DNA from: Nitrospinota bacterium | GTDB taxonomy: Bacteria > Nitrospinota > Nitrospinia > JACRGO01 | Assembly: GCA_016212295.1 (NCBI GenBank) | Contig: JACRGO010000013.1 | Location: forward strand, 1 to 14,963 | Direction of reading: 5' to 3' | DNA length: 14,963 bases | In this document: positions 8,838 to 14,962 of the stretch, piece by piece | How positions within the stretch are numbered: position 1 is the first letter of the stretch | How the letters are laid out: each line of letters begins with the position of its first letter | Translations under genes and position numbers: made by a program | The notes under the pieces: model-generated | Databases searched by the model: none | The model's input: the letters and a program-made list of their open reading frames with translations, nothing else | What the model was told of the DNA's origin: nothing

Positions 8838-9770
8838 TCAATCGGCAAAAACCCTTTTCGATTTCATTGCCGGTACGTCCATGCCGAGTCTTTCGTAATC
8901 TTCCATGCCTACCAATGATTCCACAAGGGCCAAAAACCTTTCGCCGGGGCCGACGACACGCAAAATATCCCTGGCGGCGAATGAGCCTTGAATGCCGGTA
9001 ATTCCCCTCTTGGAAATCATATTGCCCTTTAATAATTCCGCCTCCGTTTTTTTATCCACATGCGCCAGGGGATAAAAAGAGAGCGCGTCGCTGATGCTGT
9101 AAAGGACCTCGTTTTGCCTGCCTTCCCCTTTCAACTCCCGCAAGCGCTCCAAGGTTACGGAGTCCTTGATGTCCATGTTTCCAACCCTTTCCCGCACAAG
9201 GGATTTCAAGTGGGCCCCGCATCCCAAATCCTGGCCGATGGAATCGCACAATGTCCGGACATAAGTCCCGGAGGAGGTTTCCGTCCTGAAAAGAACTTCG
9301 TCGCCTTCAATCCCAAGAAGAGACAGGGAAGCGATGCGGACCGTTTTGGGGGTCCGTTCCAGGACAATCCCCTTTCTAGCCAATGTATACAGTTTTTCCC
9401 CGTGAATCTTTTTCGCTGAAAACATGGGAGGGACTTGTTGGATTTCTCCGGTATATTTTAAAAAGATTTCCAGGATCCGCGATTCATCCACGGAAAAGTC
9501 CTCGCATTTTTCAATGACCGCTCCCTCCGCGTCCTGGGTGTCCGTCCTTATTCCAAGCTTCATTCTTCCGCAATACACCTTGTTGGAGGTCAACAGGTAT
9601 TGGACAACGCGGGTCGCCTTTCCGAGGCAGATAGGAAGAACGCCGGAGGCCAGGGGGTCCAGTGTGCCGGTATGCCCCCCTTTTTTCGCGTTGAGTATTT
9701 TCCGGACAATGGAAACCGTTTTGAAGGAAGTAATCCCAATCGGCTTGTTTATGTTAATAATTCCGTCCAT
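8838..9770 (-). CDS. truB: tRNA pseudouridine(55) synthase TruB
   Basis: This enzyme converts U55 of the tRNA T-loop to pseudouridine. The 310-aa product opens with DGIININKPIGITSF and has the catalytic motif GHTGTLDPLASGVLP, with the nucleophilic aspartate at residue 38. Further family motifs are LGIRTDTQDAEG, QVPPMFSAKKIHGEKLY and SSGTYVRTLCDSIGQDLG. The C-terminal part (from about 225) is a PUA-like extension. I chose the ATG at 9770, which overlaps the rbfA stop (TGATG); a GTG one codon upstream (9773) is equally possible. The coupling makes rbfA-truB one translational unit. ribF, often between truB and rpsO, is absent. Confidence 0.97.
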   Translation of the reverse strand: MDGIININKPIGITSFKTVSIVRKILNAKKGGHTGTLDPLASGVLPICLGKATRVVQYLLTSNKVYCGRMKLGIRTDTQDAEGAVIEKCEDFSVDESRILEIFLKYTGEIQQVPPMFSAKKIHGEKLYTLARKGIVLERTPKTVRIASLSLLGIEGDEVLFRTETSSGTYVRTLCDSIGQDLGCGAHLKSLVRERVGNMDIKDSVTLERLRELKGEGRQNEVLYSISDALSFYPLAHVDKKTEAELLKGNMISKRGITGIQGSFAARDILRVVGPGERFLALVESLVGMEDYERLGMDVPAMKSKRVFAD

Positions 9771-10123
9771 CACTCTTTGTCCGTTTCCGATATTTCCAGA
9801 AGCGCCTTCTGTATCTTAAGGCTATAATCCAAGGAGTTGTCGATCTTGAAAATAAGCTCAGGCACGAGCTTCAAACGCAGCTTTCTTCCCAATTCCTTCC
9901 TCATGAATCCAGACGCGCTTGTAAGCCCTTGCAAGGCTTTTTCTTTTCCCTTTTCGTCGGCCATGACGCTCACGAATATCCTGGCGTTTTTTAGGTCGTC
10001 AGATAATTCCACGCGGGTAATGGTGACAAACCCGATCCTGGGGTCCTTGATCTCCATGAGCAGAAGATTGGAGATTTCCTCATGGATCAGTTCGCCCACG
10101 CGTTGTGACCGTTTATATCGCAT
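9770..10123 (-). CDS. rbfA: 30S ribosome-binding factor RbfA
   Basis: A 117-aa KH-fold protein that helps late 16S rRNA maturation in the 30S subunit. It begins with RSQRVGELIHEEISNLL and has the signatures DPRIGFVTITRVELSDDLKNARIFVSV and the C-terminal RLKLVPELIFKIDNSLDY. Length is typical. The stop overlaps the truB start. A 90-base gap separates it from ylxP; the sequence just before the ATG is AT-rich with no clear Shine-Dalgarno. Confidence 0.96.
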   Translation of the reverse strand: MRYKRSQRVGELIHEEISNLLLMEIKDPRIGFVTITRVELSDDLKNARIFVSVMADEKGKEKALQGLTSASGFMRKELGRKLRLKLVPELIFKIDNSLDYSLKIQKALLEISETDKE

Positions 10124-10213
10124 ATACGTTCAAAAAGATTTAAAAATAAAAAACCGGGGGAAAGAGGGGTTCACGGTGAAGGATTGCTCAGGCCGGCAAA
10201 GGGCGGTAAAGAA

Positions 10214-10495
10214 TCAATAAAGTTCTATCCGGCTTTCCAAAAGCTCGGCTACGTGCATTTCGTCAATAAAGTTGACAGCGATATCCAGGGTCTCCCGGAC
10301 CCTGTTTTTATCGCCGCTTACGGTCGCTATTCCGAGGATGATTTTCCTGTGGTTGTCCTGCTCCCCTACTTCGGCGATGGCGATGTTGAATTTGTTTTTT
10401 ACCCGCCCCTTAATGCTGCTGACGGCCTGGCGTTTTCCCTTAAGGGAATTATTGCCGTGAAGATATAAAGTAAGGGTGCATCCACCTACAAACAT
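10214..10495 (-). CDS. ylxP: DUF503 / YlxP-like small protein
   Basis: A 93-aa protein of the DUF503 family, recognised by MFVGGCTLTLYLHGNNSLKGKRQ at the N-terminus (residues 1-23 include the conserved LKGKR), NIAIAEVGEQDNHRKIILGIATVS in the middle and the C-terminal ESRIELY. It sits between infB and rbfA, the usual place of ylxP. The molecular role is not established; a ribosome-linked function is inferred from position. A 31-base dispersed repeat ends exactly at its start codon, so this leader is repeat-derived and has no standard Shine-Dalgarno. Confidence 0.9.
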   Translation of the reverse strand: MFVGGCTLTLYLHGNNSLKGKRQAVSSIKGRVKNKFNIAIAEVGEQDNHRKIILGIATVSGDKNRVRETLDIAVNFIDEMHVAELLESRIELY

Positions 10496-10526
10496 TTTAG
10501 ATACTTACTCGCCTATTTTGAGAATT
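10496..10526 (-). repeat. 31-bp dispersed repeat abutting ylxP start (copy 1)
   Basis: On the - strand this reads into the ylxP ATG and contains AATAGGCGAGTAAGTATC. It matches + strand 14421-14451 at 28 of 31 positions. It directly follows the 3' edge of the coiled-coil gene in the other copy but precedes a start codon here, so its role is unclear. Confidence 0.75.
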
Positions 10527-10554
10527 TATCTCGCTCAATTTTAAAAAAGATATA

Positions 10555-10632
10555 GAACGCGGATAACGCGGATGAGACGGATCTACGCGGATTTAAAATT
10601 TCTTATCCGTCTCATCCGTGTCATCCGCGTTC
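10555..10632. repeat. Palindromic intergenic repeat, GGAT-rich family (copy 2)
   Basis: A 28-base left arm (starting GAACGCGGATAACGCGG) and a 28-base right arm (ending GTCATCCGCGTTC) pair with two mismatches around a 22-base AT-rich loop. It shares the GAACGCGGAT/ATCCGCGTTC termini and GGAT-unit structure with 2166-2283. It lies between infB and ylxP, so the polycistronic message would carry a very stable hairpin just after the infB stop (10657). Confidence 0.9.
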
Positions 10633-10656
10633 CATTAAACTTTAAAATATTTTTGG

Positions 10657-12645
10657 TTAAATCTTCTTGGCGACCTTTTCAAAAAAGAAGGGTTCTATTA
10701 TGTCCCCTTCCTTTAAGTCATTGAAACCGTCAAAGCCTATGCCGCATTCATACCCGGCGGCGACCTCCCTGGCGTCTTCCTTGAAGCGCCTGAGAGAGGA
10801 AATTTTCCCCTGGTAAATTACAACGCTGTCGCGAATCAGGCGTCCTTCCGAATTCCTGGTGATGACCCCCTCCGTTACATAGGTACCCGCGATCTTTCCT
10901 ATCTTTGGAATAACGAAAACCTGCCGGACCTCCGCCTTTCCAGTCACCTTCTCAACCAGGGTGGGCTCAAGGAGGCCCTCCATGGCGGCCTTGACGTCGT
11001 TAATGGCGTCGTAGATCACCGTGTAGAGCCTAAGATCAATTTTTTCCCGTTCCGCCAGCGGTTGGGCGTTGTCAGTGGGCCGGACGCTGAATCCGATGAT
11101 AATGGCGTTGGAAGCTGAGGCAAGAAGGACGTCCGACTCCGTGATGCCTCCCACGCCGCCATGGATCACGTTGATCTGGACCTCCTTGGTGCTTAATTTC
11201 AACAGGGACTCCTTGATGGCCTGGACCGACCCCTGGGTGTCCGCCTTTATAACCAGATTGAGGGTCTTCACTACCCCTTTGCTGATTTGCTGATAAAGGT
11301 CGTCAAGCGTGATCCTTGTTCCGGCCTTCAGGAAATCTTCCCTCTGTTTTTGTGTCCTGGCGCCGCTTATTTGCCTGGCTTTCTTTTCGTCCTGGACCAC
11401 GACAAAGCTGTCGCCTGCCTTTGGGACGTCGTTCATGCCCAAAACCTCAACGGGCATGGACAAGGAAGCTGACTTCACCTTTTTCCCGCAATCGTTGAAA
11501 AGCGCCCTCACACGGCCGTAGCTGGCCCCTACCACGAAAACATCCCCGACTTTCAGGGTCCCTTTCTGGACCAGCACCGTGGCCACCGGGCCTTTTCCCT
11601 TGTGCAGTTTCGCCTCAATGACGACCCCCCTGGCCAAAGGCTTGGGATTTCCCTTCAGTTCCATTACTTCAGCTTGGAGAAGTATCATCTCCAGCAGATT
11701 TTCTATACCCTGGTTTTTCAGGGCGGAGACATTCGCGAAAATGGTGGCGCCTCCCCATTCCTCCGGGGCCAAATTCATGTCCGCGAGTTCCTTTTTCACC
11801 CTGTCCGGGTTAGCGTTGGGTTTGTCGATTTTGTTGACCGCGACGATGACCGGGACTTTAGCGGCGAAGGCATGGTCTATGGCTTCCTCGGTCTGCGGCA
11901 TGATCCCGTCATCGGCCGCCACAACCAGAACGACTATGTCGGTAGCCTGGGCGCCTCTTGCCCTCATGGCCGTGAATGCCTCATGGCCCGGCGTGTCCAA
12001 AAAGGTGACAGTGCCGCGGTTTATCTGGACCGAGTAAGCCCCGATATGCTGTGTGATGCCGCCCGCCTCTGTTGCCGTGACCTTGGTTTTCCGGATGGCG
12101 TCCAATAAGGTGGTTTTCCCATGGTCAACATGCCCCATGATCGTAACCACCGGGGGCCGGAGGACATAATCCGCCCCGGATTCCTCTTCCGCCTGCTCAA
12201 CTTCGCCCTCCGAGGAAACCTCCGATGTCCTGAACCCAAGGTCCGCGCATATCATCTTGGCGGCTTTCTGGTCGATGGCCTGATTTATGGTCGCCAGTAT
12301 CCCGCGTTTCAGCAACTGCTTTATGATTTCCGTCCCGGCAATCCCCATTCTGTCCGCAAGGTCCTTGACAGAATTGGATTCCTCTATGGGTATAGGCATG
12401 TCTTTATTACTGATTTTATTATTGATTTTGTCCTCGGAAGGCTTTTCTTCCCGGTGCGTGGCGGGCTCACTGGGTTTTTCCTTTTTCTTTTCCCCATACA
12501 TGCTTCGGATGAGTTCAGCGGTTTCTCCATCAACGGAACTCATGTAGTTCTTGACCTGAATCCCTTCCTCCTTGAGGATTTTGATGAGCTCCGCGCTCTT
12601 GATGTCGAGTTCTTTGGCTAAATAATGTACGCGAATATTACCCAT
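10657..12645 (-). CDS. infB: Translation initiation factor IF-2
   Basis: A 662-aa GTPase that delivers fMet-tRNA to the 30S subunit and promotes subunit joining. Two IF2_N-type modules occupy about 1-45 and 90-140, separated by a charged K/E/P/S linker. The G domain has GHVDHGKT (171-178), DTPGH (217-221) and NKID (271-274). After it come the beta-barrel domain II, domain III and the C-terminal fMet-tRNA-binding barrel, ending EGDIIEPFFFEKVAKKI. The N-terminal region (about 165 aa before the G domain) is short beside E. coli IF2. The ATG is 5 bases after the nusA stop, so the two are coupled. The genes often found between nusA and infB (ylxR, ylxQ) are missing. Confidence 0.98.
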   Translation of the reverse strand: MGNIRVHYLAKELDIKSAELIKILKEEGIQVKNYMSSVDGETAELIRSMYGEKKKEKPSEPATHREEKPSEDKINNKISNKDMPIPIEESNSVKDLADRMGIAGTEIIKQLLKRGILATINQAIDQKAAKMICADLGFRTSEVSSEGEVEQAEEESGADYVLRPPVVTIMGHVDHGKTTLLDAIRKTKVTATEAGGITQHIGAYSVQINRGTVTFLDTPGHEAFTAMRARGAQATDIVVLVVAADDGIMPQTEEAIDHAFAAKVPVIVAVNKIDKPNANPDRVKKELADMNLAPEEWGGATIFANVSALKNQGIENLLEMILLQAEVMELKGNPKPLARGVVIEAKLHKGKGPVATVLVQKGTLKVGDVFVVGASYGRVRALFNDCGKKVKSASLSMPVEVLGMNDVPKAGDSFVVVQDEKKARQISGARTQKQREDFLKAGTRITLDDLYQQISKGVVKTLNLVIKADTQGSVQAIKESLLKLSTKEVQINVIHGGVGGITESDVLLASASNAIIIGFSVRPTDNAQPLAEREKIDLRLYTVIYDAINDVKAAMEGLLEPTLVEKVTGKAEVRQVFVIPKIGKIAGTYVTEGVITRNSEGRLIRDSVVIYQGKISSLRRFKEDAREVAAGYECGIGFDGFNDLKEGDIIEPFFFEKVAKKI

Positions 12646-12650
12646 TTACA

Positions 12651-14261
12651 TCAGACCTTTTCGTGAAGTTCAATGAATTCAATGGCCTTCCTGTGTATTT
12701 CCTCGGCTTCTTGCTGTCCCAGGCCTTCCTCCAGCAATTCATCTATTTCCGCCCCGGACAGCTCGGCGATGGTTTGGTATCCGGCTGCTTTCAAGCGCTC
12801 CAGCAGGGCCGCTGGAATACCGGGCAGTTCGCCCAAGGGAAATTCTTCAATGTTTTCAATAATACCAACCGCCTCTTCCTTCTCCAATGGTTCGGAGGGG
12901 ACAAGCGGCGCTTCGCTGGAAGGCGCCTCCGGCTTTTTTTCTTCCTTTTCAGGAGTTTTTCTCGCTTTGGCCGGCGCTTCTTCCTTCTTTTCCAAATCTT
13001 CCTTATGCCTTACTTCCGACAGTTGGAGAACCAGCACGGCCTTTTCCTCGCTCAATCCGGCGGCGCTCAATCCTTCCTTGCCTTTTTCCACGACTTTCTG
13101 GAAATTGTTCAGCCCGCCTGTAAGCAGGGCGTGGATATCCGCTTCCTGTATCCCCTCGGTTATCTGCAACAAGGCAATGAAATTTTCCTTGTCCCTTTGC
13201 GCCCTGGATTCCTTTTCCTCGATTTCCTGACGCAGTTCCTTTTCACCCTTTATGTCGATTCTCCATTTGGTGAGACTTGACGCCAGGCGGACATTTTGCC
13301 CCCGCTTCCCGATGGCCAGGGATAACTGGTCATCCGGCACAATAATTTCCATGGATCTTTCCGGCGGGTTCAGATGCACCCTGGATATCTTGGCCGGGCT
13401 CAGGGCATGGGTGACGAAAACCGTTGGGTCTTCCGACCATTCAACGATATCGATCTTTTCCCCTTGCAATTCATTTACTATGGATTGGACGCGCACCCCG
13501 CGCATTCCCACGCAGGCGCCTACAGGGTCAACATCCTTCTCCTTGGAAAAAACCGCGATCTTGGAGCGTCCGCCAGGTTCCCTTGCCACGCCTTTGACCT
13601 CAATTATTCCCTCATATATCTCCGGGACCTCCACCTCAAAGAGCCTGGAGAGGAGTCCGGGATGCGTTCGTGACAGAAGGGCATAGACGCCCTTGGAGCC
13701 TTTTTTTATATCCAGAACATACGCCCTCATGCGGTCGTTTCTCTTGAATTTTTCCGATGGGACCTGTTCCCTCCTGGGCAGTATTCCCTCTATTTTTCCC
13801 AAATCAACGATTATGTCACGCCGTTCCTGGCGCAGGACCACAGTGCTGACCACCTCGTTGATTCTGTCCTTGAAATTGTTGTACAAGGTTTCTGATTCCG
13901 CTTCCCTGACCCGCTGCAAAATAAACTGTTTGGCGTTCAGGGCCGCGATCCGGCCCAGCGATTCCGCTTGGCCCGGGACCTTGGCCTTCATGCCTTTCGC
14001 GGCGTTCGGGTCGATCTTCTTGGCCTCTTGAAGCGAGATTTCCAACGCCGGATTTGTGACCTTTGAAACAACCTCTTTCATCAAAAAGAGTTCCGTTTCT
14101 CCGGTGGATTCATTAAAAATAACGGAAAGCTCCAGTTCCGCCGGAAAACGCTTCCTGGCGGCGGATAGAAGGGCGGCCTCAATGGCCTCGATCAGAATTT
14201 TGCGATCGATCCCTTTTTCATGGCTGATGGAATCAATTATTTGGACCAGTTCCACGCTCAT
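12651..14261 (-). CDS. nusA: Transcription termination/antitermination factor NusA
   Basis: A 536-aa RNA-polymerase-associated factor affecting pausing, intrinsic termination and antitermination. The order is an N-terminal RNAP-binding domain (1-125), S1 (about 135-200), KH1 (about 230-300, with VGACVGMRGVRVQSIVNEL), KH2 (303-345, with DDQLSLAIGKRGQNVRLAS), a helical region (350-415), a low-complexity K/E/P/A linker (about 420-465), and a C-terminal helix-hairpin-helix domain (about 475-530, LPGIPAALLERLKAAGYQTI). It is longer than minimal NusA proteins that stop after KH2. The start is MSVELVQIID, with AAAGGA about 12 bases upstream. It is the first gene of the block, has no rimP upstream, and is preceded by a promoter and an intrinsic terminator that suggest leader control. 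Confidence 0.98.
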   Translation of the reverse strand: MSVELVQIIDSISHEKGIDRKILIEAIEAALLSAARKRFPAELELSVIFNESTGETELFLMKEVVSKVTNPALEISLQEAKKIDPNAAKGMKAKVPGQAESLGRIAALNAKQFILQRVREAESETLYNNFKDRINEVVSTVVLRQERRDIIVDLGKIEGILPRREQVPSEKFKRNDRMRAYVLDIKKGSKGVYALLSRTHPGLLSRLFEVEVPEIYEGIIEVKGVAREPGGRSKIAVFSKEKDVDPVGACVGMRGVRVQSIVNELQGEKIDIVEWSEDPTVFVTHALSPAKISRVHLNPPERSMEIIVPDDQLSLAIGKRGQNVRLASSLTKWRIDIKGEKELRQEIEEKESRAQRDKENFIALLQITEGIQEADIHALLTGGLNNFQKVVEKGKEGLSAAGLSEEKAVLVLQLSEVRHKEDLEKKEEAPAKARKTPEKEEKKPEAPSSEAPLVPSEPLEKEEAVGIIENIEEFPLGELPGIPAALLERLKAAGYQTIAELSGAEIDELLEEGLGQQEAEEIHRKAIEFIELHEKV

Positions 14262-14292
14262 AAGAATATAAAATCCTTTAACATTTTTTCTG

Positions 14293-14325
14293 AAAAAAAA
14301 AGTGGGCTTAGAAAAAGCCCACTTT
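14293..14325 (-). terminator. Intrinsic terminator in nusA leader (possible attenuator)
   Basis: On the - strand the perfect 11-bp stem AAAGTGGGCTT/AAGCCCACTTT with a 5-base loop is followed by an uninterrupted T-tract (complement of A at 14293-14301). It would terminate only leftward transcription, since the + strand side continues into C-rich sequence. It lies downstream of a good promoter and about 31 bases before the nusA ATG. It may end the coiled-coil gene transcript, act as a nusA attenuator, or both. Confidence 0.88.
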
Positions 14326-14351
14326 CTCTCCCCCCAACTTAAGAATAATAA

Positions 14352-14380
14352 ATTATCACATAAAAATCCTTTAAGCGCAA
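14352..14380 (-). promoter_or_regulatory. nusA: Sigma70-type promoter for the nusA operon
   Basis: On the - strand TTGCGC (14375-14380) and GATAAT (14352-14357) are separated by exactly 17 bases, and TGT directly before GATAAT gives an extended -10. Transcription would begin near 14345, leaving a leader of about 80 bases that contains the terminator hairpin. It lies between the coiled-coil gene stop and nusA. Confidence 0.6.
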
Positions 14381-14420
14381 CTTTTATGCTTAAATTGAAG
14401 GATTAACCAAGGATATTTGA

Positions 14421-14451
14421 AATTTTCAGAATAGGCGGGTAAGTATCTAAA
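14421..14451 (+). repeat. 31-bp dispersed repeat at 3' end of coiled-coil gene (copy 2)
   Basis: Contains AATAGGCGGGTAAGTATC and matches the - strand of 10496-10526 with three changes. It covers the stop codon of the coiled-coil gene (complement of 14447-14449). Confidence 0.75.
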
Positions 14452-14857
14452 GCTTGAGGAGTCTTTTGATGATTTCAGCGGCGACGGGGTTCATGAGGGT
14501 AATAGCGATTATGGTAAGAATAATCAGGAACCGGAGCTCGGCCTTAATCAGTTTTGTTTCACCCTTGAGGAAAATTATATCTTCTCTTAAAGAGGAGATT
14601 TTCCCGTTGAATCCGACTTCAAAAGAGGAGATTTTTTCGCTGAACCGGCTTTCGAGGGATGAGATTTTTTCGCCGACCTTGCCTATTTCGATGGCCAATT
14701 TTTTTTCCAGGCGCTCTTCGGCAAGGGCTAAAGCGTCTTTCCGGGCGTCGAGGTCTATCTCTTTTATTAAATCGCAGAGGTCTTCAGAGGCATGGTCGCC
14801 AAGTGTCTCTCTTAAAGTTTTAGGTATAGAGCCTACGCATAAATTAAAAAACAACAA
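14447..14857 (-). CDS. Small coiled-coil protein with C-terminal membrane anchor (DUF1640/LA_3696-like)
   Basis: A predicted product of up to 136 aa. IPKTLRETLGDHASEDL near the N-terminus resembles the small bacterial family labelled LA_3696 or DUF1640-like; function unknown. The middle is a charged helix with three 11-residue repeats (EKISSLESRFS, EKISSFEVGFN, GKISSLREDII), a pattern expected of a coiled coil. The C-terminus has one hydrophobic segment (about LRFLIILTIIAITLMNPVAA) and a basic tail KRLLKL. The start is uncertain: the frame is open to a TAA in the terminal repeat and contains no ATG. TTG at 14857 is a guess, and the first 11 or so residues come from the 138-bp repeat, so the native start may have been lost. 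The 31-base repeat covers the stop. Confidence 0.6.
   Translation of the reverse strand: MLFFNLCVGSIPKTLRETLGDHASEDLCDLIKEIDLDARKDALALAEERLEKKLAIEIGKVGEKISSLESRFSEKISSFEVGFNGKISSLREDIIFLKGETKLIKAELRFLIILTIIAITLMNPVAAEIIKRLLKL
14591..14689. repeat. Three 33-bp imperfect tandem units inside the coiled-coil gene
   Basis: Units beginning at 14591, 14624 and 14657 each start with AGAGGAGATTTT or GGATGAGATTTT and keep the reading frame. They encode the three 11-residue coiled-coil repeats. The clear DNA-level similarity suggests recent duplication. Confidence 0.75.
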
Positions 14858-14962
14858 ATCAATTTTAAAAAACCCAACAAAATCAATGAGTTAGGATTTT
14901 AGGGTCTATGGGTAAATTGAAAACCAGTAAATATAAACTTGTCAATTTTGAAGCAGTCCCAT
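14825..14962 (-). repeat. Terminal inverted repeat, right copy (138 bp)
   Basis: Exact reverse complement of 1-138; one extra base (14963) lies outside. Its inner edge runs into the coding part of the coiled-coil gene, so it includes that gene's upstream region and first codons, plus the same TTGACA-containing possible promoter at 14916-14945 on the - strand. Confidence 0.93.

Follow-up and report, generated by a model that had tools for sequence, protein, structure and literature searches.

Does the nusA operon of this bacterium limit its own transcription through a terminator placed directly behind its promoter, or does that terminator serve only to close the transcript of the gene upstream? 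The window, a stretch of 14,963 nt that makes up one entire contig of an uncultured Nitrospinota bacterium (G000, 3.7-Mb genome), raises the question with a promoter, a hairpin and nusA that follow one another closely on the minus strand, with infB, a DUF503 protein gene, rbfA, truB and pnp behind nusA in that order (Table 1). The initial annotation had proposed self-attenuation, and conservation of the promoter-terminator pair in the same genus and across the class upholds that proposal; as a reading of sequence, self-attenuation at the nusA leader is well supported. We consider it probable that the element is a transcription attenuator of the rimP-leader type, in which NusA would act back on its own operon.

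Table 1. Features of the nusA leader and of the operon behind it in the window.
Feature	Position	Strand	Basis
-35 element TTGCGC	14375..14380	(-)	sequence reading
Extended -10 element TGTGATAAT (TGT-GATAAT)	14352..14360	(-)	sequence reading
Leader 5' of the stem, ~20 nt, with a G6 run at 14335-14330	14326..14345	(-)	antiterminator search negative
Terminator hairpin AAAGTGGGCTT-TTTCT-AAGCCCACTTT, signature GGGC...GCCC	14299..14325	(-)	sequence, folding
T-run, T9	14293..14301	(-)	sequence reading
Ribosome-binding site AAAGGA of nusA, 3' of the terminator	14274..14279	(-)	sequence reading
nusA, first gene behind the leader	12651..14261 (ATG 14261)	(-)	
infB, next in the operon	10657..12645	(-)	
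DUF503 protein gene, rbfA and truB, same direction	8838..10495	(-)	

The promoter is laid out as TTGCGC-17-(TGT)GATAAT (14380-14352), with a spacer of 17 between its two elements, and the match predicts an RNA start near 14345. Read on the minus strand, the extended -10 promoter and start given by the initial annotation have the right coordinates, and its order of a terminator some 20 bases past the start, followed by nusA, is confirmed. The minus-strand text from promoter to terminator is AAGTTGCGCTTAAAGGATTTTTATGTGATAATTTATTATTCTTAAGTTGGGGGGAGAGAAAGTGGGCTTTTTCTAAGCCCACTTTTTTTTTCAG, and the start of nusA, GTTAAAGGATTTTATATTCTTATG, comes soon after. Taken alone, the promoter is modest: when its 80-nt stretch is shuffled, a comparable match arises in 4.4% of cases. 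A generic promoter and terminator scan of the window picked up neither this promoter, whose -35 matches in only three of six positions, nor the hairpin, the latter probably missed since stem pairing runs into the T-run. The nusA promoter becomes convincing because it is conserved in the same-genus genome and across the class. A second promoter-like sequence 3' of the T-run, TTCAGA-18-TATATT (14294-14265), was considered as the true nusA promoter and rejected because its RNA would begin within or after the ATG. The spacer of the leader promoter (14372-14354, minus strand), AAAGGATTTTTATGTGATAA, contains a start-stop (ATG TGA) preceded by sequence like a ribosome-binding site and is similar to the genuine ribosome-binding site of nusA, AAAGGATTTTATATTCTTATG (14279-14261, minus strand); the likeness is probably a coincidence in A+T-rich DNA.

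The hairpin has a perfect stem of 11 bp closed by a TTTCT loop. Both this stem and the nine-base T-tract had been described before and are present, but three of the Ts overlap the stem and had been counted in both; the structure is either 8 bp followed by T9 or 11 bp followed by T6. For the predicted RNA (14345-14293) the folding energy is -21.9 kcal/mol (z -4.1), a stability reached by none of 200 shuffles. When a strong terminator is defined as an 8-bp stem of Watson-Crick pairs, five or more of them G-C, with T6 behind it, this hairpin is the only one on either strand of the 15-kb window, and none of 30 shuffles contained any. The nusA ATG lies 31 nt beyond the end of the T-run.

The same promoter-terminator pair, for which a comparison with related genomes had been suggested, is found in the relatives. 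In the only other genome of the genus (G001), the sequence before nusA runs TTGCGT-N17-TAGCTT and, further on, GTGGGC...GCCCAC with T9, the hairpin reading GAAGTGGGC...GCCCACTTTTTTTTT, and none of 1,000 shuffles reached the local alignment score of the two leaders from -35 to stem. Pairwise local alignment was used for this promoter comparison; MAFFT on the two leaders put the -35 wrongly. Across the class, an automatic search found a hairpin with a T-run before rimP in 61 of 65 distinct leaders. Of the remaining four, one lies at a contig edge and two are the rimP genes that have moved in this genus; in the last, L113, a hairpin with a longer loop can be recognised by eye. L008 also has a long-looped hairpin, for which the automatic search chose another structure. 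A promoter-like pair whose -10 ends 20-33 nt 5' of the stem is present in 53 of the 61 distinct leaders, against 1.5 expected from dinucleotide shuffles. Class leaders have TTGAAA or TTGCAA at the -35 place, and the distance from the end of the -10 to the stem, 26 nt in the window, is 22-31 nt in nearly all those linked to proS.

The hairpin of the window is the published rimP-leader, a kind of element already known and widespread in bacteria. That element was described as a GGGc...gCCC stem with a U-run in the leader of rimP-nusA-infB, 4-130 nt before the first gene, with no visible antiterminator in its general form; NusA was proposed as its regulator, and conservation of the stem sequence was the reason given for proposing a specific reader (Naville & Gautheret 2010, PMC2965389). 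The window shares the stem signature (GTGGGC...GCCCAC at 14322-14302), the U-run and the position in a nusA-infB leader; it likewise lacks a visible antiterminator, and the signature is rare elsewhere in its genome. It differs from the published form in having nusA first, with rimP on another contig without a terminator, and its class relatives differ in carrying a candidate antiterminator. The motif GTGGGC-N3-10-GCCCACTTTTT has a single site in the 3.7-Mb window genome and a single site in the 5.6-Mb genome of G001, each of them in the nusA leader. A looser motif gave 46 distinct sites in 77 class genomes, 37 of them at a rimP or nusA leader by manual tally, and the other 9 equal in number the matches to a reversed-pattern control. 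Among 77 leaders from other phyla, a hairpin with a T-run was found in 61 on the sense strand and in 10 on the antisense strand, and many of these leaders carry AGTGGGC...GCCCACT.

Leaders of similar design have been studied in model bacteria. RNA-seq of the Streptococcus agalactiae operon gbs0413-gbs0418 (rimP-nusA) yielded two RNAs, one short and one long, that share a start, with termination 31 nt downstream of it (PMC4448216); this is nearly the geometry predicted here, although the start was mapped there and is predicted here, and the first gene is rimP there and nusA here. The Bacillus subtilis nusA operon also has an intrinsic terminator in its leader, but that leader, in the work cited by PMC2965389, extends ~180 nt before ylxS/rimP, whereas the predicted start in the window lies ~20 nt before the stem. 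Leader terminators before rimP-nusA are likewise common to Rfam RF01770 and the Escherichia coli metY-nusA-infB terminators, and NusA feedback has been reported in E. coli. The RF01770 covariance model, which is gammaproteobacterial and E. coli-type, had no match in the window genome and none in ten leader loci when E values up to 5 were allowed; among 14 control genomes it matched only E. coli. Rfam searches of the window at gathering thresholds, and of those ten loci with the same relaxed E value, gave only matches far below gathering, among them L20_leader at 23-28 bits against a cut-off of 58.7, and all were regarded as chance.

Which gene the leader serves can be asked in this genus, where rimP is no longer part of the operon. 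The gene lies directly 5' of nusA in nearly all class relatives, and in the window genome and in G001 rimP stands alone on another contig. No terminator was found before the relocated rimP in either genome of the genus, and the leader has been kept at nusA. As rimP moved without a terminator while the leader stayed, nusA would be the partner of the leader; by the evidence of this one genus, what is regulated would be nusA, or the remainder of the operon, and not rimP. Two rimP-less genomes outside the class, L109 and L100, had no GGGC hairpin and no detectable rimP. Incompleteness of these genomes, or loss of both features, might account for this, and the two lend no support as a test of the idea that the leader follows nusA, which therefore rests on the one genus.

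The initial annotation had suggested folding the leader for a competing antiterminator, and none was found in the window: nothing complementary to the 5' arm stood out in its leader (z 0.06; score 6.6 against 8.2 in shuffled leaders). The element was likewise not found in the G001 leader. Most other class members have GUCUGC, CCUGC, GUCUAC or GCUCGU between start and stem, a short element that complements the terminator's 5' arm. GUCUGCU or GUCUACU, facing AG(C/U)GGGC, stands just 5' of the hairpin in L003, L005, L008, L141, L129, L034, L039, L045 and others, a set of Nitrospinota and a few deltaproteobacterial genomes. Pairing of class leaders with their own arm averaged 11.8, above the maximum of 300 arm permutations (11.62) and of shuffled leaders (9.08), and in several lineages G has become A in the element where the facing arm base changed from C to U. 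Kinship of the sequences inflates these pairing tests, and the element is therefore a candidate antiterminator only. Among leaders of other phyla, 4 of 39, mostly deltaproteobacterial, showed antiterminator pairing at p<=0.05; an antiterminator as a trait of all rimP-leaders is thus unsupported. It is conceivable, and we hold it as a tentative view, that nusA is the true partner of the leader and that Nitrospinota possess a covarying 5' antiterminator switch that was lost secondarily in this genus.

We propose a model where RNA polymerase starts near 14345 and transcribes ~45-50 nt to the hairpin and U-run. At the GGGC...GCCC hairpin the polymerase would either release a short RNA or read through into nusA-infB-rbfA-truB. 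NusA would promote formation of the hairpin in the exit channel and so increase termination, and abundant NusA would then lower expression of its own operon. The analysis shows the layout of the sequence, the joint conservation of promoter and hairpin, the specificity of the motif and its persistence at nusA once rimP had gone; that the promoter fires, that termination is partial and that NusA is the sensor, we infer. The B. subtilis precedent given in the initial annotation is correct according to the passage of PMC12288461 that cites Mondal 2016, in which NusA controls its own expression by promoting termination within the leader of its operon.

A simpler account, raised in the initial annotation for the coiled-coil gene of the window and applicable to proS in relatives, reduces the hairpin to a 3' terminator of the upstream gene and the promoter to a fortuitous or minor match. 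The upstream ORF of the window (14857-14447) is co-directional with nusA, as is proS in most relatives, where it typically ends ~80-95 nt before the stem; conservation alone might therefore reflect the end of a proS transcript. However, a promoter at fixed spacing sits between proS and the hairpin in those 53 leaders, and the hairpin is retained where the upstream genes are divergent, both in family f6 and in G001, whose genes upstream of nusA, a multiheme cytochrome first, run the other way for >4 kb. The motif is, moreover, peculiar to the rimP/nusA operon and present before rimP in other phyla. Ending the upstream transcript thus fails as the main role, given G001, and we regard that account as highly improbable, although the window hairpin may also halt readthrough from the co-directional ORF.

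A real attenuator might instead answer to a signal other than NusA, such as a cold-shock RNA chaperone, transcription speed, NusG, another factor or, in the relatives, a competing fold. CspA-family proteins have been put forward as antiterminators of the E. coli nusA-infB operon, a proposal that is disputed, and the 5' element of most class members, with pairing above that of permuted and shuffled sequences, would suit such a signal. The element was not found in the window or G001, however, the leader followed nusA and not rimP, and in B. subtilis regulation by NusA is demonstrated, according to the passage cited above; we find a different signal unlikely. By analogy NusA is the most likely sensor here, because the B. 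subtilis mode is demonstrated and because the leader stayed with nusA and not with rimP. Counting against the NusA step is the canonical strength of the terminator, with its low folding energy and uninterrupted T9; in B. subtilis, NusA counts most at weak hairpins and interrupted U-tracts. The strength of the hairpin and the negative search for an antiterminator in the window would also fit a constitutive terminator with fixed partial readthrough, which would set the promoter-to-operon ratio or free a small RNA and would involve no feedback. Yet conservation of the GGGC...GCCC stem across phyla exceeds the needs of a generic terminator, and this arrangement seems to us less likely still than a signal other than NusA.

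NusA feedback through a leader terminator has so far been demonstrated or proposed in few model bacteria only. The same leader on a nusA without rimP in Nitrospinota supports an ancient, general self-limiting loop, which would act on an operon of transcription and translation factors, and it marks nusA, as distinct from rimP, as the partner that would be regulated. The leader is compact, at ~50 nt, and suits in vitro study of how NusA reads the GGGC stem. If the antiterminator of the class relatives is real, its pairing with the GGGC arm would be a regulatory switch undescribed for the rimP-leader attenuator.

Several features of the contig stand apart from the leader. Positions 1-138 and 14825-14962 hold an identical 138-nt sequence, inverted, at the two contig ends. 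The same sequence, at full or nearly full length, is found at the ends of ~20 contigs in this genome; only its outer 27 nt are present on some further ones. A high-copy insertion element bounded by terminal inverted repeats probably ends in this sequence and breaks the assembly. The tip of the repeat abuts the ORF 5' of nusA (14447-14857, minus strand), which encodes a small coiled-coil protein with a C-terminal membrane segment and without a Pfam match, and which has nine more matches elsewhere in the genome. Because the TTG start of this ORF falls within the repeat at the contig end, the protein may have a truncated or artificial N-terminus. A 32-nt sequence around the stop codon of the ORF (14420-14451) recurs, inverted and at 91%, at 10496-10527, between infB and the DUF503 gene, which suggests a decayed copy of the coiled-coil gene unit within the nusA operon. 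The gap between infB and the DUF503 gene also holds an inverted pair of 31-nt GCGGATGA-type repeats (10552-10635), and a third related copy of this type lies at 2253-2283.
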